Below are positions 56,000 to 63,239 of a stretch of DNA of 64,000 nt, piece after piece. Under the pieces are notes generated by a model. The model was not told the origin of the DNA, did no database searches, and was given only the letters and a program-made list of their open reading frames with translations. The stretch is from Paludibacteraceae bacterium. GTDB taxonomy: Bacteria > Bacteroidota > Bacteroidia > Bacteroidales > Paludibacteraceae. Position numbers and translations under genes: made by a program. Position 1 is the first letter of the stretch. Every line of letters starts with the position of its first letter. Location: positions 1 to 64,000 of the forward strand of contig JAFUVS010000013.1 in assembly GCA_017471175.1 (NCBI GenBank), in the 5' to 3' direction.

Positions 56000-56050
56000 A
56001 AATCAATCAGCCCTGACGGAAAATGTTTTGCTGTCGGGGCTGATTGATTT
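56000..56050 (+). terminator. Strong intrinsic terminator after the LRR protein gene
   Basis: An 18-nt arm (56000-56017) pairs with 56033-56050, with a single G-U-type mismatch, around a 15-nt loop, and the stem closes with AAATCAATCAG/CTGATTGATTT. It can act in both directions. Its right arm runs into the stop codon of the fossil ATPase end (56049). Confidence 0.85.
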
Positions 56051-56159
56051 ACATAAACAGGTCGTCAAGCACCACCTCACTTTGTACATCTCCTGCATAC
56101 TCGTTAGGTAGCAGTCCGAACGTGGTAATCATCGTCAGATACAGTGCTTTTTTTATGAC
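56049..56159 (-). pseudogene. Fossil 3' end of an accessory ATPase gene (left copy)
   Basis: Read leftward from 56159, 36 codons remain open to a TAA at 56049: [20 protein letters not shown], then YAGDVQSEVVLDDLF and M. The T-M-I-T-T-F-G-L-x-x-N-E-Y...V.LDDLF ending is, to my recollection, the C-terminus of a Bacteroidetes accessory AAA ATPase family. Just before it lies an in-frame TAA and no further homology, so only the end survives. Confidence 0.55.
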
Positions 56160-56169
56160 TTACGGCGCA
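56067..56169. repeat. 103-bp direct repeat, left copy
   Basis: This matches 61703-61805 in the same orientation at 99 of 103 positions. It includes most of the fossil ATPase end and 10 bp beyond its in-frame stop. Confidence 0.9.
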
Positions 56170-56177
56170 ACACTACT

Positions 56178-56635
56178 GTCCACTAAAAAATGGACGATTA
56201 AAAATTTAAGTCAGACAATAACGGTTCACTTGAATCAAGACGTTCTTTGTCATTTTGAAAATTAGTTCTGTTGAGCAACTCCGTAAGGTGCATTTTGTTC
56301 GTCAGTGATACACTCAAAACGTGTAAAAGTTCATACGTTGTCAGCTTAAGTTTCATATCGTGTTGCACAATCGCCACCAAACAATAAGCGTAAGTAACTG
56401 ATTCCAACAGGTATAATGCTTGATATAATGGTCACCGTTATACCTGGCTACTATACGTCTGAACTTATCCTCGTTGATAAACTCTATAATTTGTGAGAAG
56501 ATGTATTTGACTTGATTCATAAGTAGATGTGATTTTATCTACAAGATTACAAAATCAAATCGTCGCGCACAAATTATCGCTGTAACAAACTAATTTTCAA
56601 TACGTCAAAGAACAATGTCTAAATTTTTAGTGGAC
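56178..56635 (-). mobile_element. Internally deleted IS4-family (DUF4372-type) insertion element
   Basis: TGTCCACTAAAAA (56177-56189) is repeated inverted at 56624-56636, and ACT flanks GTCC..GGAC on both sides, a possible 3-bp target duplication. Inside, the transposase start is intact from ATG 56520: MNQVKYIFSQIIEFINEDKF, RRIVARYNGDHYIKHYTCW, the N-terminus of IS4-type DUF4372 transposases. Then the frame changes and only the C-terminal end remains (AYCLVAIVQHDMKLKLTTYE ... FQNDKERLDSSEP, 56388-56198). About two thirds of the gene is missing. It cannot encode an active transposase but its ends could still be mobilised in trans. Confidence 0.85.
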
Positions 56636-56659
56636 ACTAATGATATTACTAACATAATG

Positions 56660-56693
56660 AAAGAACGCGTGTAAATGTGTACGCGCGTTCTTT
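56660..56693. terminator. Hairpin, possible bidirectional terminator
   Basis: AAAGAACGCG (56660-56669) pairs with CGCGTTCTTT (56684-56693), perfect over 10 bp, followed by TCGTTTT on the plus strand. It sits between the IS remnant and the fossil tail gene, whose reading direction (minus) it would terminate. Confidence 0.6.
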
Positions 56694-56722
56694 TCGTTTT
56701 GCCCTGTATGTATCCAATTAGA

Positions 56723-56860
56723 TTATTTCACCTCTTGTCCTTGTAGCGTGTAGGTCTTGTCACCACGGAGGATGTAGATTTGACCGTCACGGACAAGTTT
56801 GTTTGTCATGTTGTGTGCATTCCCACTATTGACTATCTCTATTGCCTCGCTTGCTTCCAA
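56723..56860 (-). pseudogene. Fossil 3' end of a tail-bearing surface-protein gene
   Basis: Read leftward from about 56860 the frame gives LEASEAIEIVNSGNAHN, then NKLVRDGQIYILRGDKTYTL and QGQEVK before TAA at 56723. This matches the shared C-terminal tail of the proteins ending at 55986 and 43586. No start, signal peptide or upstream domains remain, so it is the decayed end of a lost gene. Confidence 0.75.
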
Positions 56861-56886
56861 CGGCCACACAACAGACAAAACAAGAG

Positions 56887-56982
56887 CGGCAAATCAGATT
56901 TGCCGGGAAAGGAAAAAGACTCCAACCTGCTCGGTGGTGGAGCAGGCTGGAGAGAAGAATGTGGCTCGGCAAATGTGCCGAG
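56887..56982. other. Cluster of three hairpins in gene-free sequence
   Basis: H1 is the 19-nt palindrome at 56887-56905 (CGGCAAATC/GATTTGCCG). H2 is a 13-bp stem at 56920-56932 with 56940-56952 (one mismatch, 7-nt loop). H3 is CTCGGCA/TGCCGAG at 56965-56982. H1 and H3 share the CGGCAAAT sequence. No good protein match is seen in the two open frames that cross them. It may be a structured RNA, a mobile-element end, or debris. The wider 55987-57071 stretch holds only the remnants listed here. Confidence 0.5.
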
Positions 56983-57071
56983 AGTTAAACCGACACATCG
57001 GGTTATCGATAGAGCGAAAGGGGGATCGAAAAATCCAGAGAGTTTTGACAGCTGGCACTAATCCAAAAGAT

Positions 57072-57665
57072 TTAATGAGTTCCTATTAAAGAAGGGTGAA
57101 TTTCTGCGAGTGAACGCTCAAATAGTTCCATAATTGGTTTGCATTCTTGCGGAAAAACATACACATGTAGTTTAAATACCATCTTATGGTTTCCAGCCCA
57201 CATATCAAGATGTAAACCATGTTGGTCTGTTTGTTCATGATACCCAAGATGATTCATTATTCTACTAACTATATTATCAGATTTACCCACATACAAAGTA
57301 TTGTCTTTAGGGAAAGCATATTTGACAGTTCTCGGTGTTTGAATAGTTGTATTTTCTTTTATGCTCTTGACCTCATTTTTAATAGTTTCTACCAATTCTT
57401 TCGACAGAATATCTGGCGATATGATTTCCCAACGATATAGACATGGAAAAGCATCATAATGTTTCAGCCATCCAAACATATCTTTGAATGGGGCAGCTGT
57501 CCGCACATCAATACCGTCCGTTAGATTAGGTAGATATTGGTGATTTAGATTCTCACTCTTTATTTCAAATGTATTAGTGTCTACGATGCCGCATTTAGCG
57601 ACCAATTGAAATAAAGTGCTGTAATATTCAGCATTGATTTTGAAGATTTCTTCCGGTGTTTTCAT
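57072..57665 (-). CDS. GIY-YIG-like nuclease, partner of the membrane gene upstream
   Basis: A 197-residue soluble protein. The core pattern of GIY-YIG nucleases is present: FPCLYRWE (73-80) in place of the first GIY strand, then after a long insert NTLYVGKSDN (122-131) for YIG, Arg135 and His139 on the following helix, and Glu183 in ELFERSLAEIHPSLIGTH, the usual metal-binding Glu before a P-x-L-I/N end. The insert between the two strands (about 81-118) is unusual. Its ATG overlaps the stop of the upstream gene (ATGA, 57662-57665), so the two are translated together. Nuclease activity is inferred from motifs. Earlier residues 1-70 are unrecognised. Confidence 0.65.
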   Translation of the reverse strand: MKTPEEIFKINAEYYSTLFQLVAKCGIVDTNTFEIKSENLNHQYLPNLTDGIDVRTAAPFKDMFGWLKHYDAFPCLYRWEIISPDILSKELVETIKNEVKSIKENTTIQTPRTVKYAFPKDNTLYVGKSDNIVSRIMNHLGYHEQTDQHGLHLDMWAGNHKMVFKLHVYVFPQECKPIMELFERSLAEIHPSLIGTH

Positions 57666-59101
57666 ATTAAAATCCTTTCTATTTCTTCTGGCGTTGGGAA
57701 ACTCTGCAAATCATTTTCGTCAAGGAACAATACTTTGGTGTTTTTTAAGTTTGTCTGTTCCCGTTCAATGTTGATACGGTCTGTTTTATTAGAATTATCT
57801 ACTATGCGTGAGAATTCATGAGGAATAATTGCGGAACAAGTCAAATATCTATACCCCATCCATGTGTATTCCGGGAGTTTTCCGAAATATGCCCATGTGT
57901 CTTTATTGAGAATAATGATTACTTTAGGTCTAATCACTTCTTCAATCATATTTTGGGATAGACACACTTGCTCTATAATATAGTTAAACATTTGCGGATT
58001 CAGTACTACTTGTTGATTAGCTATTTGATGGTTACTTTCTCTAAAACTGAACAAATCAATATATGCAGCCCTATCACGCAGATCTGTTTGAGAAGAGACT
58101 AACATCTTTTTAATAGCCTCTCTATCAGGCAATTGGTATACTTGCTGATTTCCTACTTTTTCACCTTTATCGAAAGAAGGGTTATAGCCAACAAGTAAAA
58201 TGTCCTTTTGTGTTGAATTGTGGCATATATGATATCCACGTCGCATAATTTCATTAGAGTTACCATATTTATCCCACAAGTAATCATGTTCAGTTTGCAT
58301 AATTTCATTGGGATCTATAGTGGCTTCTTCTTCGGATGTTTGTGTCTCAACAGCTATAGCAGGTGCTATTTCTCCCGATTTCTGTACCATTTGCTGTTTT
58401 TTCTCTTTCCGTTTTTTATGCACATTAGAAATTAAGGCGTTCACCTGGTAAAAGAATGCGATATATATTCTTAAGGCTATTACACATATAACACCGAACC
58501 AAAACAAACAAATATACAGATAATTATCATATGTAATTTGATCTTGATACCATTCGTATGCAGATTCTATTCCTAAATAAATTAATCCTATTACTATCGG
58601 TAGTATCATTAGTAGGAGAAATGATAATTTTCCAATAATTTTGCGCCAGGTAGCAATGTATTGCACCCATTTGAAATACCATATGTCACGATGGAATGGA
58701 TTTTGACGTTCCAGCAATGTAACACCATGCTTGAATTTGGAAAAGAGAGTATCAGTGAATTGATTTCGCATTCTATTTTCTTTCCCTTCTTCATCAGATG
58801 CAATAATAGTATTCCAACTCTCCGCTTTTAACTGGATAGCCATATCGTGTAATTGTTCCACAAGATTTTTCTCATCTTCAGCAAACTCAACACTACGTAC
58901 AGAATCGGCATTTCCTAATATGGCGGAATGTAGAGAATTCAATTGTGCCTCTTCAGCGAGGTGTTGACGACGACTTGCAGTCTCTGCACGAATGTGCTTA
59001 ATCGGTCTTGCCCAGTTCTCTCCAAAAACTGCATTACTTAATCTGTCTGCTGTGTTCTGACCTGCTCTGCGCCAGAAACCGCGTGAAAAACTATTACTCA
59101 T
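57662..59101 (-). CDS. Two-helix membrane protein with uracil-DNA-glycosylase-like C-terminal domain
   Basis: The start at 59101 (MSNSFSRGFWRRAG) is preferred to 59128, whose extra residues form an unlikely hydrophobic stub. The 479-residue product has an Arg-rich helical N-terminus, two membrane helices (about 158-180, LSFLLLMILPIVIGLIYLGI, and 202-218, YICLFWFGVICVIALRIY), a basic linker, and a soluble domain from about 290. That domain has DILLVGYNPSFDKG (301-314), like the GxNP loop of the uracil-DNA-glycosylase superfamily, then IIILNKDTWAYFG and a late PHEF that could replace the glycosylase HPS loop. Coupling to a GIY-YIG-like nuclease suggests a membrane-linked nucleic-acid defence unit. 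Function is otherwise unknown. Confidence 0.55.
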   Translation of the reverse strand: MSNSFSRGFWRRAGQNTADRLSNAVFGENWARPIKHIRAETASRRQHLAEEAQLNSLHSAILGNADSVRSVEFAEDEKNLVEQLHDMAIQLKAESWNTIIASDEEGKENRMRNQFTDTLFSKFKHGVTLLERQNPFHRDIWYFKWVQYIATWRKIIGKLSFLLLMILPIVIGLIYLGIESAYEWYQDQITYDNYLYICLFWFGVICVIALRIYIAFFYQVNALISNVHKKRKEKKQQMVQKSGEIAPAIAVETQTSEEEATIDPNEIMQTEHDYLWDKYGNSNEIMRRGYHICHNSTQKDILLVGYNPSFDKGEKVGNQQVYQLPDREAIKKMLVSSQTDLRDRAAYIDLFSFRESNHQIANQQVVLNPQMFNYIIEQVCLSQNMIEEVIRPKVIIILNKDTWAYFGKLPEYTWMGYRYLTCSAIIPHEFSRIVDNSNKTDRINIEREQTNLKNTKVLFLDENDLQSFPTPEEIERILI

Positions 59102-59118
59102 ATTGATTATTAATAAAA

Positions 59119-59209
59119 GTGTGAACACTCTGTTTATTGGTATATTCGGGCTTCGACTCCCATGGTTTCCAATATATGCAGAAAGTCCACACTCACGGTG
59201 TGAACATTC
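59119..59209. repeat. Two GTGTGAACAYTC direct repeats
   Basis: GTGTGAACACTC (59119-59130) and GTGTGAACATTC (59198-59209) lie just upstream of the membrane-protein gene. The second is part of a CACAC/GTGTG inverted repeat (59188-59202). These are candidate operator sites. The surrounding 59129-59401 gap shows no convincing gene. Confidence 0.45.
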
Positions 59210-59343
59210 GCTATATTAGGAAAACCATTACAATGTGTCGAAGATTGAATATATCCTTAATAAAGCAAATGCTTATTTTATATGTTGTTTGTCTTTTGTT
59301 TTATGCCATAGGCAGATTTTTGTTTGTTGTATATTTGTTTTTA

Positions 59344-59363
59344 ATCGACCAAATGTGGTCGAT
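59344..59363. other. Perfect 8-bp inverted repeat downstream of the DUF1016 gene
   Basis: ATCGACCA (59344-59351) and TGGTCGAT (59356-59363) with loop AATG, 38 bp beyond the stop of the minus-strand DUF1016 gene. No clear U-run follows on that strand, so terminator function is uncertain. Confidence 0.4.
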
Positions 59364-59401
59364 ACTTTCTCTGTCGGTGTTTGTCAGAGAGGGACGTGTA
59401 T

Positions 59402-60487
59402 TTAGTTATCTTGTTGCAGGCGATAGATTTCTTTCTGCCGTTCGATCTCACGACGGAGTTCTTCTTCTGTTGGCATATAGGTCAGATATTTCGCCGCATA
59501 CAGCTGTTTGCTGTCATTCAAAATGGAATACCGCGCAATATCTTTACTTGTTTCCGCACAAAGCAATAAACCAATTGTAGGATTGTCACCCTCCGTGCGC
59601 CGCAAGTCATCAAACATACGGATGTACATATCCATCTGACCTATATCTTGGTGCGTAATAGTGGTCGTTTTCAGGTCCACAAGGAAATAACATTTAAGAA
59701 CCACATTGTAGAACACCAAGTCCACATAATAATCTCCGGTATCGGTTGCTATATGATATTGCTCGCTCATAAACGCGAACCCGCGTCCCATCTCAAGCAG
59801 AAACTCCTTTAAGTGCTGAATGATTGCTCGTTCAAGATCTGATTCAGTATAGTTCGTATTTGCCGGCAGTTGCAGAAATTCAGCCACCATCGGGTTCTTG
59901 ATAAACTCGTCTTTATCTTGCTGAAACGGTGCTGTCAGTTGCTGCATTTCCGCTATAACATCGTTTTTCGTCGGAGCTTGCAGCAGACGGTAGTAATACT
60001 GCGAACCGATGTTTCTATCCAACGTGCGCGTACTCCACATTTCTTGCGAGGCTTCTCTCAAATACCAATAACGGGCATTCTCATCCGCTACCCGCAACAG
60101 GCTTCGGAAATGTGTCCATTTTAGATTTGGTACGCGTGCGTGCCAAATTTCCAAATCGCTGAAATACAGATATAATTGCCGATAGTTACGCAAGTCGCGT
60201 GCCGTAAACCCCGACGCATACTCAAGCGACAAATCTTTTGCCAATGAATTCAGCAGTTGCGTTCCGTACTCGGCGCGTTTTTCTCCGTGTTGTTCCTCCT
60301 CTACAATGCGCCTGCCGATCTGCCAATAGGTATTGACCATCACCATATCTACCTCTTGGTACGCCTTGCGTAATCCGTCTTCTATAATACGGCGGACATC
60401 CGTAAGCAAGGCTTCGAAAGATTTGGTACGCGTGTGTGCCAAATCTTGGAGAAGAGGTGTTTGATTGGATATGTCTGATGATTTCAT
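59402..60487 (-). CDS. DUF1016 (YhcG-type) PD-(D/E)XK nuclease-domain protein
   Basis: A 361-residue protein of the YhcG family. The N-terminal DUF1016 part (about 25-180) has VNTYWQIGRRIVEEEQHG, FTARDLRNYRQLYLYF and LKWTHFRSLLRV. The C-terminal nuclease domain has HLKEFLLEMGRGFAFM, YYVDLVFYN and CYFLVDLKTTTITHQDIGQM, supplying the D...(D/E)xK set, then PTIGLLLCAE. Family members appear in restriction and mobile-element contexts; some associate with Type I systems. No such system is next to it. It follows the inactivated antitoxin-like gene by 22 bp and probably shares its promoter. Confidence 0.9.
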   Translation of the reverse strand: MKSSDISNQTPLLQDLAHTRTKSFEALLTDVRRIIEDGLRKAYQEVDMVMVNTYWQIGRRIVEEEQHGEKRAEYGTQLLNSLAKDLSLEYASGFTARDLRNYRQLYLYFSDLEIWHARVPNLKWTHFRSLLRVADENARYWYLREASQEMWSTRTLDRNIGSQYYYRLLQAPTKNDVIAEMQQLTAPFQQDKDEFIKNPMVAEFLQLPANTNYTESDLERAIIQHLKEFLLEMGRGFAFMSEQYHIATDTGDYYVDLVFYNVVLKCYFLVDLKTTTITHQDIGQMDMYIRMFDDLRRTEGDNPTIGLLLCAETSKDIARYSILNDSKQLYAAKYLTYMPTEEELRREIERQKEIYRLQQDN

Positions 60488-60509
60488 AGGCGGTAATTGT
60501 TTTCGTTAT

Positions 60510-60806
60510 TTATTTGTTCCTTGTATTATCTGCATCATATTGTTGTCTTTCTTGCCGTGCTTGACGGATTTCATCATTGATGTCCTCAAGCGTCATTTCG
60601 GAATTACCGTTTAACTCACTTATACGCCTCATTGAAGCGACAGCTGCACGCGCGTTGCGTCTGACTGTCTGTTGCGCCGTGTTGTACTCAATCAACAATG
60701 CCTCGACTTGTCTTTGCAGTCAAGCCGTCATATCCGTCTCGTTCGCAAACGACCGGCGTGTGCGCTGAACGAGTTCGTCGTCTAATGATAGATTGTACAT
60801 ACACAT
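60510..60806 (-). pseudogene. Antitoxin-like gene interrupted by a nonsense codon
   Basis: From ATG 60806 the frame reads MCMYNLSLDDELVQRTRRSF then ANETDMTA, a TGA at 60720-60722 (codon 29), and continues in frame LQRQVEALLIEYNTAQQTVR ... SEMTLEDINDEIRQARQERQ to the stop at 60510. The layout is that of short Bacteroidetes type II antitoxins: a ribbon-helix-helix-like start, then MTxWLQ, where the TGA replaces the expected TGG Trp. The second half could be restarted internally. No toxin gene lies beside it. TGA acts as a stop elsewhere in the window. Confidence 0.7.
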
Positions 60807-60839
60807 ACGTTATTTCCTCCTATTTAGATAATTACGCTG

Positions 60840-60871
60840 CAAATGTACGACTTTTTTGGCATATTTGCAAA
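60840..60871 (-). promoter_or_regulatory. Promoter of the antitoxin-like/DUF1016 operon
   Basis: On the minus strand TTTG (60868-60871), 20 bp, TACATTTG (60840-60847), with a six-A run in the spacer. The start codon at 60806 follows. Confidence 0.8.
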
Positions 60872-60914
60872 TAATTAGTTAATTTTCTTGAATTTTTAAT
60901 GGTTTAAGTCGGTT

Positions 60915-61478
60915 TTATTGTTGCTGAGTTGTTTTTAACTCTTGGTAAATCATGGCACGTATGAAGGCTGGGAGTTGGAGGTAACGCTTGGGGTTGCCTG
61001 TTTGAGGGTCGATGGGGGCTTGCGGGTCGGGGTGTCTGCCACGGATATTGGGGAGCTGTTGCGTGTAGCGAGCACGGAAGTCGTTGTAGAGTTGCAGGGC
61101 TTCTTCGGGAGTGTAGTAGTCGGGAATATGGCTGGTCAGTTTGATAACGCGTTCCACTTCGGCATGGGCTTGACGTTCCTCGGGCGTGAGGTCCGGGTCT
61201 TGGCTTGTGCCTTTGACGCTCTTGGGCTGACCGGCGGCGAGTATCTGAGAGGTGCGGTGGCACGCTTCACGCCAGCGGTTGTGGTGCTTCAGTTCTTCGC
61301 CCTTGGGTGGGTTCTTCTTGAAATCGCGAGGATGACGGACAGCATACGCTTCTTGCTTGCCTTCGTGTATGATTCTGCCTTTTTCGTCCCGGTACTTCTT
61401 CTGACGGCTGATAATGCCGTGTTTTTCAATCGCTTCGTGAATCTCGTCGAACGGAATTTGTAGTTTGACTTCTGCCAT
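60915..61478 (-). CDS. Basic protein of unknown function, 187 residues
   Basis: A soluble, strongly charged protein without signal peptide or membrane helix. It starts MAEVKLQIPFDEIHEAIEKH and has YRDEKGRIIHEGKQEAYAVR and HPRDFKKNPPKGEELKHHNR, then WREACHRTSQILA and a helical segment PEERQAHAEVERVIKLTSHI, and ends RYLQLPAFIRAMIYQELK. I do not recognise a family. The two KxYRDEKG/HEGKQEAY strands and Arg/His-rich spacing would suit a nucleic-acid-binding protein, but no catalytic set is evident. It has its own promoter (61614-61645) and a leader with two 22-bp-spaced repeats, so it is probably regulated. Confidence 0.65.
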   Translation of the reverse strand: MAEVKLQIPFDEIHEAIEKHGIISRQKKYRDEKGRIIHEGKQEAYAVRHPRDFKKNPPKGEELKHHNRWREACHRTSQILAAGQPKSVKGTSQDPDLTPEERQAHAEVERVIKLTSHIPDYYTPEEALQLYNDFRARYTQQLPNIRGRHPDPQAPIDPQTGNPKRYLQLPAFIRAMIYQELKTTQQQ

Positions 61479-61549
61479 ATTGATAGGTTGTTTGGGTTTG
61501 TCGGATGCTATTCTGTCGGTATGGTGGAGTGTCGGTGTGATTAGCCGAG

Positions 61550-61583
61550 TAACATACGAATATCATAGGAATAACATACGAAT
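61550..61583. repeat. TAACATACGAAT direct repeats at 22-bp spacing
   Basis: TAACATACGAAT at 61550-61561 and 61572-61583, two helical turns apart. They lie between the promoter at 61614 and the start codon at 61478, i.e. just downstream of the predicted transcription start, as expected for an operator. Confidence 0.6.
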
Positions 61584-61613
61584 CACATAAGATATGTTGC
61601 TGCAATATGGCTG

Positions 61614-61645
61614 CAAAGATACTGCTTTTTTGCGAGAGATGCAAT
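61614..61645 (-). promoter_or_regulatory. Promoter of the 187-residue protein gene
   Basis: ATTG (61642-61645), 20 bp, TATCTTTG (61614-61621) on the minus strand. The spacer (CTCTC, then AAAAAA and GCAG) closely resembles those at 10046 and 10305. Confidence 0.78.
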
Positions 61646-61702
61646 AGGTTTGGCGGAGTTTTGTGCTTGATTGAGTGATTTTTGTGTGGATTTGTTATAG
61701 AA

Positions 61703-61805
61703 AAGCACCACCTCACTTTGTACATCAACTGCATACTCGTTAGGTAGCAGTCCAAACGTGGTAATCATCGTCAGATGCAGTGCTTTTTTTATGACTTACG
61801 GCGCA
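61703..61805 (-). pseudogene. Fossil ATPase end / 103-bp direct repeat, right copy
   Basis: 99 of 103 positions match 56067-56169, including the in-frame TAA before [20 protein letters not shown]. Here the ancestral end is cut off after SEVV: the LDDLF ending is replaced by unrelated codons. The repeat ends 6 bp before the T-run of the tRNA-Ser terminator. Confidence 0.8.
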
Positions 61806-61810
61806 GGTAT

Positions 61811-61843
61811 AAAAAAAGATGTGCCTTTGGTTGGCACATCTTT
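61811..61843 (-). terminator. Intrinsic terminator of tRNA-Ser
   Basis: On the minus strand AAAGATGTGCC (61843-61833) pairs with GGCACATCTTT (61825-61815) around a 7-nt loop and is followed by a U-run. The stem is perfect over 11 bp. Confidence 0.9.
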
Positions 61844-61844
61844 G

Positions 61845-61929
61845 CGGAAAGAGAGGGATTCGAACCCCCGGACCCGTTAAGGTCAACGGTTTTCAAGACC
61901 GCCGCGATCGACCACTCCGCCATCTTTCC
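61845..61929 (-). tRNA. tRNA-Ser (anticodon UGA)
   Basis: An 85-nt class II tRNA. The 7-bp acceptor stem GGAAAGA/TCTTTCC closes 61929-61923 with 61852-61846, and G at 61845 is the discriminator. The anticodon loop is CUUGAAA within GCGGU..ACCG, giving UGA. There is a long variable arm and a T-loop GGTTCGAATCC. CCA is not encoded. It reads UCA and UCG-class serine codons. Confidence 0.96.
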
Positions 61930-61930
61930 C

Positions 61931-61966
61931 TAAAGAAGGATTGCCGGACGGGCAATCACTTCTTTA
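61931..61966 (-). terminator. Long hairpin between the lipoprotein gene and tRNA-Ser
   Basis: TAAAGAAG (61931-61938) and GATTGCC (61939-61945) pair with GGCAATC (61951-61957) and CTTCTTTA (61959-61966), with one bulged base and a 5-nt loop. Read on the minus strand it ends UUCUUUA, right before the tRNA 5' end at 61929. It probably terminates the lipoprotein transcript. Confidence 0.75.
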
Positions 61967-62010
61967 TTCAATTCAGCATAGAAACTGAAGATTGGTGTAA
62001 AAACCGAAGA

Positions 62011-62238
62011 TTATTGAGCAACAGCTTCTTGAACAGCCTCAGCAGCCTCAACGGTTTGCTCTACGGCGTTAACGACAGCGTTCTCTTCTTCAGCGGGTTG
62101 TTCCTCAACAGGAGCAGCAACTTCTTCCACTTGAGCAGCCTCTTGTTGGCAAGCTTCGGTGTTCTCCGTGTTTTCAGCCTTCTTACCGCAGCTCATAACG
62201 CACATTGCGATAGCTGCAACGAATAACAATTTCTTCAT
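62011..62238 (-). CDS. Small Glu/Ala-rich lipoprotein
   Basis: A 75-residue lipoprotein with signal KKLLFVAAIAMCVMSC (Cys17). The mature part is very acidic and Ala-rich (QQEAAQVEEVAAPVEEQPAE), probably extended or helical. Similar short lipoproteins are common in Bacteroidales and have no defined role. It has a textbook promoter (62301-62332) interleaved with that of the divergent PASTA gene, and a hairpin terminator at 61931-61966, so it is monocistronic. Confidence 0.8.
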   Translation of the reverse strand: MKKLLFVAAIAMCVMSCGKKAENTENTEACQQEAAQVEEVAAPVEEQPAEEENAVVNAVEQTVEAAEAVQEAVAQ

Positions 62239-62300
62239 TGTTTTGTTATTTTTAATGGGTTAATTATGTTGTTTTTCAAGTATCTTCTCAAAAAACCGCG

Positions 62301-62332
62301 CAAAAGTACGCTGTTTTTTTATCGTGTGCAAA
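62301..62332 (-). promoter_or_regulatory. Promoter of the small lipoprotein gene
   Basis: On the minus strand TTTG (62329-62332), 20 bp, TACTTTTG (62301-62308), with a seven-A run in the spacer. It overlaps the divergent promoter at 62317-62348. Confidence 0.85.
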
Positions 62333-62348
62333 AAAAAATGTACTTTTG
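62317..62348 (+). promoter_or_regulatory. Promoter of the PASTA/rluD operon
   Basis: TTTT (62317-62320; consensus TTTG), 20 bp, TACTTTTG (62341-62348). The -7 box is part of GTACTTTTGC (62340-62349), an exact inverted copy of GCAAAAGTAC (62300-62309) in the opposite promoter. Confidence 0.7.
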
Positions 62349-62396
62349 CCCGATTTTTGACGTTTTGACAACTCTACATTTAATTTTCCTGACTAA

Positions 62397-63239
62397 ATGG
62401 CTACAAAACAGACTTATAAGACCGACAAAGAGGGTATGCCCTTTTGGAAGGTCATTCTCATTAACCTTGGTATAGCCCTTATCATAGTGGTTGTGCTGTT
62501 GGTTGTGCTCAAGGGTTGGCTCAACCGTTACACGGAGCACGGGGTGGAGGTGGAGGTGCCTCAAATCACGGGGTTGACCGTGGAAGAGGCGCAGATTCTG
62601 CTGCAAGGCGAATCGCTGCGGATAGAGGTGATTGACTCCACGTACTCATCGAAGGTGCCGCTCGGCACGGTGGTAGAGCAGTCGCCCGCGCCGGTGAGCC
62701 ACGTGAAAAAAGGACGTACTATTTATGTGGTGATGAATGCCCGCCAGCGTCGGAAAGTGGCTGTGCCTCAACTTGCGGATGTACCTTACCGTCAGGCAGA
62801 AAGCACATTGCGCCAAGTAGGTTTGATTCCCACCGGACTGGTTTATCAGCCTTCTGCTTACCGCGACCTTGTACTTGATATTCTCTCGGAAGACAGCACA
62901 TCTATTCCTGCCGGAACGATGCTCACGGAGAACACGCCCGTCATCCTTGTAGTAGGTCAGGGTTTGGGTACGGCGCAGGTCATCACGCCTGATTTGAGAG
63001 GATTGAGCCTGCAAGACTGCCGTTCACTGCTTTTGGCTGCACATCTGACGCTCGGCACCGTCACTTACGACATTGAGCCTACGGACGAGAACAGGAACTT
63101 GTACGTGGTCTATGACCAGCAACCGGCATCGGGCAGTCGGCTGACGGAAGGAGAAACGGTGAACATCAACCTCTCAACCGACCGCGATAAAGCCGCCACC
63201 GTCAAACCGGCGGAGGACTCGGAGGAAGAGTTTTTCTAA
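62397..63239 (+). CDS. PASTA-domain membrane protein
   Basis: A 280-residue inner-membrane protein: short cytoplasmic start, one membrane helix (about 18-42, VILINLGIALIIVVVLLVVL), then three periplasmic PASTA domains (about 50-117, VEVPQITGLTVEEAQILL; about 118-190, VAVPQLADVPYRQAESTL; about 193-263, VITPDLRGLSLQDCRSLL), and an acidic tail. PASTA domains bind peptidoglycan stem peptides or related cell-wall ligands. No kinase domain is attached. In Bacteroidetes this gene is regularly followed by an RluD-type synthase, as here (38-bp gap). Confidence 0.9.
   Translation: MATKQTYKTDKEGMPFWKVILINLGIALIIVVVLLVVLKGWLNRYTEHGVEVEVPQITGLTVEEAQILLQGESLRIEVIDSTYSSKVPLGTVVEQSPAPVSHVKKGRTIYVVMNARQRRKVAVPQLADVPYRQAESTLRQVGLIPTGLVYQPSAYRDLVLDILSEDSTSIPAGTMLTENTPVILVVGQGLGTAQVITPDLRGLSLQDCRSLLLAAHLTLGTVTYDIEPTDENRNLYVVYDQQPASGSRLTEGETVNINLSTDRDKAATVKPAEDSEEEFF

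Follow-up and report, generated by a model that had tools for sequence, protein, structure and literature searches.

A two-gene membrane locus of gut Bacteroidales with a GIY-YIG superfamily protein, a glycosylase-like domain and a structured leader RNA: a possible modular immunity system

Introduction

What does a membrane protein ending in a glycosylase-like domain do in one operon with a protein of the GIY-YIG superfamily? The question is raised by a Paludibacteraceae bacterium, a member of the gut Bacteroidales (assembly GCA_017471175.1; 1.81 Mb in 21 contigs, 78% complete), in the 64,000-nucleotide stretch of contig JAFUVS010000013.1 that was analyzed here and is called “the window” throughout. 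The original prediction was that a base-removing or base-sensing domain, held at the membrane and paired with a nuclease, would make an unusual defense layout. How much of that picture survives a comparison with relatives of both genes? A search of the open-access literature, with subscription journals mostly outside its reach, found no paper on the pair or on the leader RNA described below.

Architecture of the locus

Both open reading frames of the predicted pair are present on the minus strand and overlap by the 4 bp of an ATGA, and the two membrane helices foreseen in the first gene coincide with two hydrophobic segments. The features are as follows:

57662..59101 (-), gene P0001, 479 aa from its ATG, made of an N-terminal helical or coiled module, two membrane segments and a C-terminal glycosylase-like domain
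58556..58645 (-), membrane segment 1 of P0001, residues 153-182, by hydropathy
58430..58528 (-), membrane segment 2 of P0001, residues 192-224, by hydropathy
57665..58309 (-), C-terminal glycosylase-like domain of P0001, residues 265-479, homologous to stand-alone proteins
58163..58204 (-), the DILLVGYNPSFDKG motif of P0001, residues 300-313
57662..57665 (-), 4-bp ATGA overlap of the P0001 and P0002 genes
57072..57665 (-), gene P0002, 197 aa, a GIY-YIG superfamily protein
59113..59276 (-), 5′ leader RNA of the operon, structured, with an antiterminator and a terminator hairpin predicted as alternatives; its end lies 11 nt from the ATG (other copies: L116-L155)

An alternative GTG start would extend the P0001 gene to 59128. 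At 57-59 kb the GC content is 35.5-35.7%; the remaining 1-kb bins between 50 and 64 kb have 40.2-58.1%. Just upstream of the leader, on the same strand, lies a DUF1016/YhcG-type PDDEXK gene (59402-60487 (-); PF06250, PF17761) which matches the PADLOC candidate PDC-S02. P0001 and P0002 themselves match none of the PADLOC models (E up to 1).

The C-terminal domain of P0001 is also encoded on its own, by genes of about 220-255 aa, and this stand-alone family aligns with the fused domains at a probability of 100 and an E of 4.9e-42 (hhalign). At one locus (L047) two neighboring genes encode the membrane module and the glycosylase-like domain separately, which supports a functional link between the two parts. 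Four stand-alone glycosylase-like genes (L015, L017, L018, L029) sit directly behind WYL-type regulators, the L029 regulator sharing a single ORF with its glycosylase-like part; the L015 regulator is recognized by a WYL model, and the other three by eye.

P0002 belongs to the GIY-YIG superfamily

In GIY-YIG proteins a first-strand tyrosine is followed by a YxG motif, an arginine, a histidine and a catalytic glutamate, and this is the order found in P0002. The predicted series of LYVGKS (residues 124-129), Arg135, His139 and Glu183 holds, with its original numbering: Y77, Y125, G127, R135, H139, and E183 are invariant in all 14 aligned relatives. By profile-profile comparison (hhalign), the P0002 family matches 30 GIY-YIG segments from related genomes with a probability of 86.5 and an E of 4.5e-6. 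In the same matrix, seven other families give E 0.089 or worse; the closest control, from a later comparison, is a single UDG protein (L038) at E 0.0059, three orders weaker than the GIY-YIG match. Taken alone, P0002 falls under the Pfam GIY-YIG (PF01541) gathering cut-off (16.8 vs. 22.6 bits, E 0.0088), and a PDB sequence search with it gave no relevant match. By its residues and its family profile, P0002 is a GIY-YIG superfamily protein, and a candidate nuclease.

A glycosylase-like domain with a variable motif

The C-terminal loop of P0001 had been likened to the uracil-DNA glycosylase (UDG) superfamily, a resemblance much weaker than that of P0002 to GIY-YIG proteins. The DILLVGYNPSFDKG motif is present, with GYNPSF retained in the window's protein, and its G-x-N-P core is found in 12/12 aligned stand-alone relatives (ten by script, two read by eye); L055, a weaker stand-alone relative outside the alignment, has L-N-P without the glycine. 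A sister fusion group with the same N-terminal motif carries G-x-N-P in 7/7 members, read by eye (L013, L016, L022, L023, L028, L053, L054). Sequence searches do not recognize the domain as a UDG: P0001 has no match to Pfam UDG (PF03167) up to E 1. There is no UDG among the matches of a PDB profile search, hhalign comparison of the domain with the PF03167 set yields E 0.12-0.24, and nothing significant appears against Ung-type references. UDG motif 2, of the H/N-P-S type, is not seen in P0001, where its equivalent position is uncertain without a fold.

The domain has some likeness to E. coli Mug, a UDG-superfamily protein that also carries a G-x-N-P motif, with a profile E of 0.0074 located at the motif (hhalign), a level similar to the E 0.0059 of an unrelated pair, the GIY-YIG profile against L038. 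None of 200 Mug shuffles reaches the real score of the stand-alone family (23.1) or that of the merged family, while 5/200 do so for the fused domains alone, 51/200 for UDG2 (an uncharacterized family, described below) and 145/200 for the GIY-YIG control. A score of 23 against Mug is not unusual in itself, since with two other profiles shuffles scored as high as 23.0 and 25.1. Because controls attain similar levels, the likeness to Mug is treated as suggestive only, and a UDG fold of the domain, although conceivable, is unproven.

The motif itself varies in the window's own fused subfamily. G-x-N-P is kept in 3/8 proteins (the window, L040, L041), changed to GFNN, that is N-N, in L045, and absent from L042, L043, L044, and L046, of which L043 and L046 are near-identical; with the motif lost in 5/8, the subfamily departs from Mug and PF03167. 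Base excision is thus unlikely as a function shared by the subfamily, which counts against the base-removing half of the original suggestion as a common role. P0001 is not a demonstrated glycosylase.

Recurrence of the pair and exchange of partners

Is the pair found elsewhere? Among 250 genomes of the family, the window's included, any part of P0001 occurs in 17, P0002 relatives in 8, and both halves of P0001 in five (G000, G451, G478, G561, G599); three of these five also have a P0002 relative, adjacent every time. The hypergeometric p for this co-occurrence is 2.1e-4, or 0.0040 without the window's genome, and it rises to 0.067 in a broader count that takes in all 16 genomes, besides the window's, in which any part of P0001 occurs.

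Eight membrane-protein loci are available, the window and seven from a scan of the genome collection. The GIY-YIG gene adjoins the membrane-protein gene in three of them: in L045 it lies downstream with a 4-bp overlap, as in the window, and in L042 the order is reversed, the GIY-YIG gene being upstream with a 26-bp gap. In the other five (L040, L041, L043, L044, L046), the gene directly downstream is UDG2. The two genes do occur together in two other genomes, though not as a fixed pair, since 5/8 membrane-protein loci have another second gene, and a modular family describes them better. The survey of neighborhoods qualifies conserved pairing from the other side as well, for no membrane protein was found within about 1.5 kb in 13/15 GIY-YIG loci, some of which reach contig ends.

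UDG2 is an uncharacterized family with the motif GxGNP...IG(K/Q)E (L041 9502-10377, L040, L043, L044, L046, L053, L054), and the members scanned have no Pfam, NCBIfam or PADLOC match. Its G-x-G-N-P...G-K/Q-E pattern presumably recalls that of family-4 UDGs; as an identification this was rejected, the resemblance being one of motif, with no support from hhalign. A WYL regulator (PF13280) and an uncharacterized gene of 305-329 aa lie upstream in L041 and L044; L040 has the latter gene and no WYL regulator. L042 and L044 come from Paludibacteraceae MAGs.

The window and L045 can be compared along their length. DNA identity is 90.0% over 57070-57697, the nuclease gene plus about 30 bp before it, and 94.4% over 59108-59317, the leader. 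Just outside the nuclease gene, identity drops to about half or less, and between the two blocks there is no blastn match; P0001 and its L045 counterpart share about 36% of their amino acids (171 of 479). Such divergence beside a nuclease gene that is 90% identical is as expected of a fast-changing sensor. The leader, however, is of a dispersed kind, and its high identity therefore says less about a shared ancestry of the locus than does the identity of the nuclease gene.

Neighbors of the GIY-YIG family

Besides the window, 15 GIY-YIG loci were examined, mostly over about 1.5 kb on each side, the weak matches L008 and L061 being left out. A restriction or Abi gene adjoins the GIY-YIG gene or lies within about 1 kb of it in 6/15:

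L006, putAbiC
L038, HsdM
L039, AbiJ_NTD4
L058, HsdS
L059, HsdR and HsdM
L060, HsdM

In L059 the GIY-YIG gene lies between HsdR and HsdM, and in L060 the GIY-YIG-like stretch shares its ORF with an FRG domain, beside HsdM. These type I restriction and Abi loci with an inserted GIY-YIG gene (L058, L059, L060, L039, L006) hold the same family as P0002; the partner there is HsdS, HsdR or HsdM, AbiJ or putAbiC, and not a two-helix membrane protein. In L038, the GIY-YIG relative is followed by a protein that passes the Pfam UDG cut-off (PF03167, E 1.7e-8). A membrane protein is beside the GIY-YIG gene in 2/15 loci (L042, L045), and nothing was recognized beside it in 7/15 (L005, L007, L034, L036, L037, L056, L057). 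A role in defense is suggested by this neighborhood. One family of secreted protein, with the start ...VQTKTEKINDETTRT..., occurs behind the membrane protein in L031 and behind the GIY-YIG gene in L036 and L037.

The leader RNA

The region upstream of P0001 would encode a strongly structured RNA. Its folding energy is -56.2 kcal/mol against -34.8 for shuffles (z -5.7), and for 20 copies RNAalifold predicts 45 pairs, 15 of them with compensatory change. When 41 copies are placed on a covariance model, 96.8% of cells pair (82.7% when shuffled), and the covariation score is 0.417, against 0.146 for shuffled and at most 0.073 for slid alignments; the 41-copy alignment behind these figures is fitted to the structure. 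By a plain count, the middle arm can pair with the 5′ arm at 8/8 pairs in 18/20 copies, or with a 3′ arm that precedes a T-run at 8/8 pairs in 17/20. The arms thus have the layout of an antiterminator and a terminator, and attenuation may be their action in the cell.

No Rfam 15 family matches the leader, either in the window (56000-62500, E up to 1) or in 12 loci (E up to 0.1), these searches returning nothing but tRNA and obvious chance hits at other positions. An integron attC site or another DNA hairpin element was considered and rejected, since the copies are scattered, G-U cells far outnumber A-C cells on the sense strand (133 vs. 17), and a sense gene follows 36/41 copies. The attC features used in this comparison are general background. 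The leader is a candidate for a new attenuator or riboswitch-like family.

Which genes does it precede? The leader matches 41/66 genomes of the genus, the window's included, with up to eight copies each, some of the matches being short. In 36/41 copies an ORF in sense orientation begins no more than 250 nt away, vs. 15/41 in antisense, and 29 of those 36 genes have hydrophobic, signal-peptide-like N-termini. In eight further copies read by eye, such a start is found in the first gene of seven and in the second gene of the eighth. Since the leader mostly precedes genes of this kind, its regulon is not a defense regulon.

A sense leader is nonetheless found upstream in 9/45 family loci at E < 0.05 (L012, L014, L022, L023, L034, L036, L037, L043, L047). 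The two weakest of these matches have E 0.014 and 0.037, and four duplicate places are among the 45 sources. Eight of the nine are independent of the model; the exception is L012, which coincides with L045, a member of the model. At 53 control loci around UvrC-, Ung- and similar genes there is none up to E 1 (Fisher p 5.6e-4, or 2.7e-3 minus two near-duplicates), a contrast that may partly reflect accessory vs. core genes, as the controls are mostly housekeeping loci. At a threshold of E 0.001, G514 has a single copy, immediately before the GIY-YIG gene, and G478 has none; G607 and G556 have copies that pass, but those preceding their GIY-YIG genes are not among them. In L034, L036, and L037, the GIY-YIG gene lies between the leader and another gene, without the membrane protein. 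Between the leader and the membrane-protein gene of three loci (L022 2040-2220, L023 795-976, L043 7504-7672) is a small ORF which, by eye, resembles an XRE-type helix-turn-helix protein.

Comparison with known systems

SNIPE (PD-lambda-1) is described as a membrane-bound GIY-YIG defense nuclease, a single protein with one N-terminal membrane helix, a DUF4041 and a GIY-YIG domain, in the passages on its architecture (PMC13190303). The likeness lies in the membrane anchor joined to a GIY-YIG nuclease domain, with direct cleavage of incoming DNA as a candidate action; contrary to SNIPE, the present locus has two genes, two membrane segments and a glycosylase-like domain instead of DUF4041, which is not among the Pfam matches of P0001 or P0002 up to E 1. 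Having no DUF4041 and two genes, the pair is not itself a SNIPE.

Brig1 and Brig3, according to the relevant passages, illustrate that UDG-superfamily glycosylases can defend against phage (PMC11078745, PMC13160076), and P0001 shares with them a UDG-superfamily-like domain in a possible defense setting. The Brigs are presented there as glycosylases sufficient or tested alone, whereas catalysis is unsupported in the window's subfamily, and those passages mention neither a membrane segment nor a GIY-YIG partner.

What the locus may do

We tentatively favor a modular, horizontally moved module of the immunity type, in which a membrane-held sensor and a nuclease would act like a SNIPE split between two genes. 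P0001 would be anchored in the inner membrane by its two helices, holding the glycosylase-like domain there on the cytoplasmic side, and this domain would act as a sensor or docking platform, in most members without removing bases. P0002 would be the exchangeable effector, a GIY-YIG nuclease cutting incoming DNA once the platform engages it, and the leader RNA would regulate the operon through transcription attenuation. Physical interaction of the two proteins and phage DNA as the target are conjectures that this reading entails. It draws on the invariant catalytic residues, the co-occurrence, both gene orders and the presence of either GIY-YIG or UDG2 beside 8/8 membrane-protein genes, together with the restriction and Abi neighbors (6/15), the WYL regulators of L041 and L044, the low GC, the divergence of P0001 against the conservation of the nuclease, and SNIPE as a precedent (PMC13190303, in the passages cited above). 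Against it stand the p of 0.067 in the broad count, the 13/15 GIY-YIG loci without the membrane protein, the lack of PADLOC matches, of plasmid matches and, for P0002, of phage matches, and the signal-peptide-like starts of most genes behind the leader.

Some of these points suit other explanations. The GIY-YIG gene may be an independent mobile passenger, homing-endonuclease-like or restriction-associated, which enters many operons and whose neighbor is incidental; this is possible, if on the unlikely side. Its neighbors are indeed diverse (HsdS, HsdR/HsdM, HsdM, putAbiC, AbiJ, a Pfam UDG, or nothing recognized), the block of 90% identity between the window and L045 is confined to the nuclease gene and about 30 bp ahead of it, and in L034, L036, and L037 the gene sits between leader and another gene without the membrane protein; yet it is ATGA-coupled in two loci, stands in reverse order in L042, and co-occurs with P0001 beyond chance in the strict count. 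An operon outside defense, related to the envelope or to DNA uptake and grouped with secreted-protein genes under the same leader, appears improbable: the signal-peptide-like N-termini after 29/36 leader copies, and 7/8 further ones by eye, speak for it, but the occurrence is patchy (17/250 for any P0001 part, 8/250 for P0002) and accompanied by restriction or Abi neighbors and low GC.

Quite improbable, finally, is a Brig-like activity with an added nuclease, in which foreign DNA would lose a modified or wrong base to the P0001 domain and then be cut by the nuclease at the abasic site. GYNPSF in the window's protein, G-x-N-P in 12/12 stand-alone relatives and in 7/7 sister fusions by eye, the Pfam-recognized UDG behind the L038 GIY-YIG relative, and the defensive glycosylases Brig1 and Brig3 (passages of PMC11078745 and PMC13160076) agree with it; however, the motif is kept in 3/8 of the subfamily, L042, which shares the partner, lacks it, and L045 has only GFNN; P0001 shows no second motif of the His-Pro-Ser kind, and the fold is unproven.

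The membrane-held sensor and nuclease can be set in a broader proposal, which we regard as rather doubtful: a new modular Bacteroidales membrane immunity family, with a two-helix anchor bearing a glycosylase-fold sensor plus a GIY-YIG or second glycosylase-like protein, the sensor gene being replaced or fast-changing between conserved flanks, and the whole switched on by a previously undescribed RNA attenuator common to a secreted-envelope-protein regulon. Should this hold, the one-protein SNIPE design would not be the only form of membrane-held nuclease that cuts phage DNA on entry, and glycosylase-like domains might act as sensors instead of enzymes. The leader, which matches nothing in Rfam and covaries far more than its shuffled and shifted controls, would represent a new family of regulatory RNA and open the control of envelope-linked genes in gut Bacteroidales to direct testing.

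Relatives on mobile elements

Plasmid relatives were found for neither P0001 nor P0002, phage relatives of P0002 were likewise not found, and viral_contigs scans returned no relative. P0001 has one partial match in phages, at L032 4998-5684 (MT835917.1), an unannotated gut phage contig. The protein there is of the stand-alone glycosylase-like kind, 37.7% identical to the P0001 domain, and its gene lies downstream of large ORFs which, by eye, resemble structural genes.
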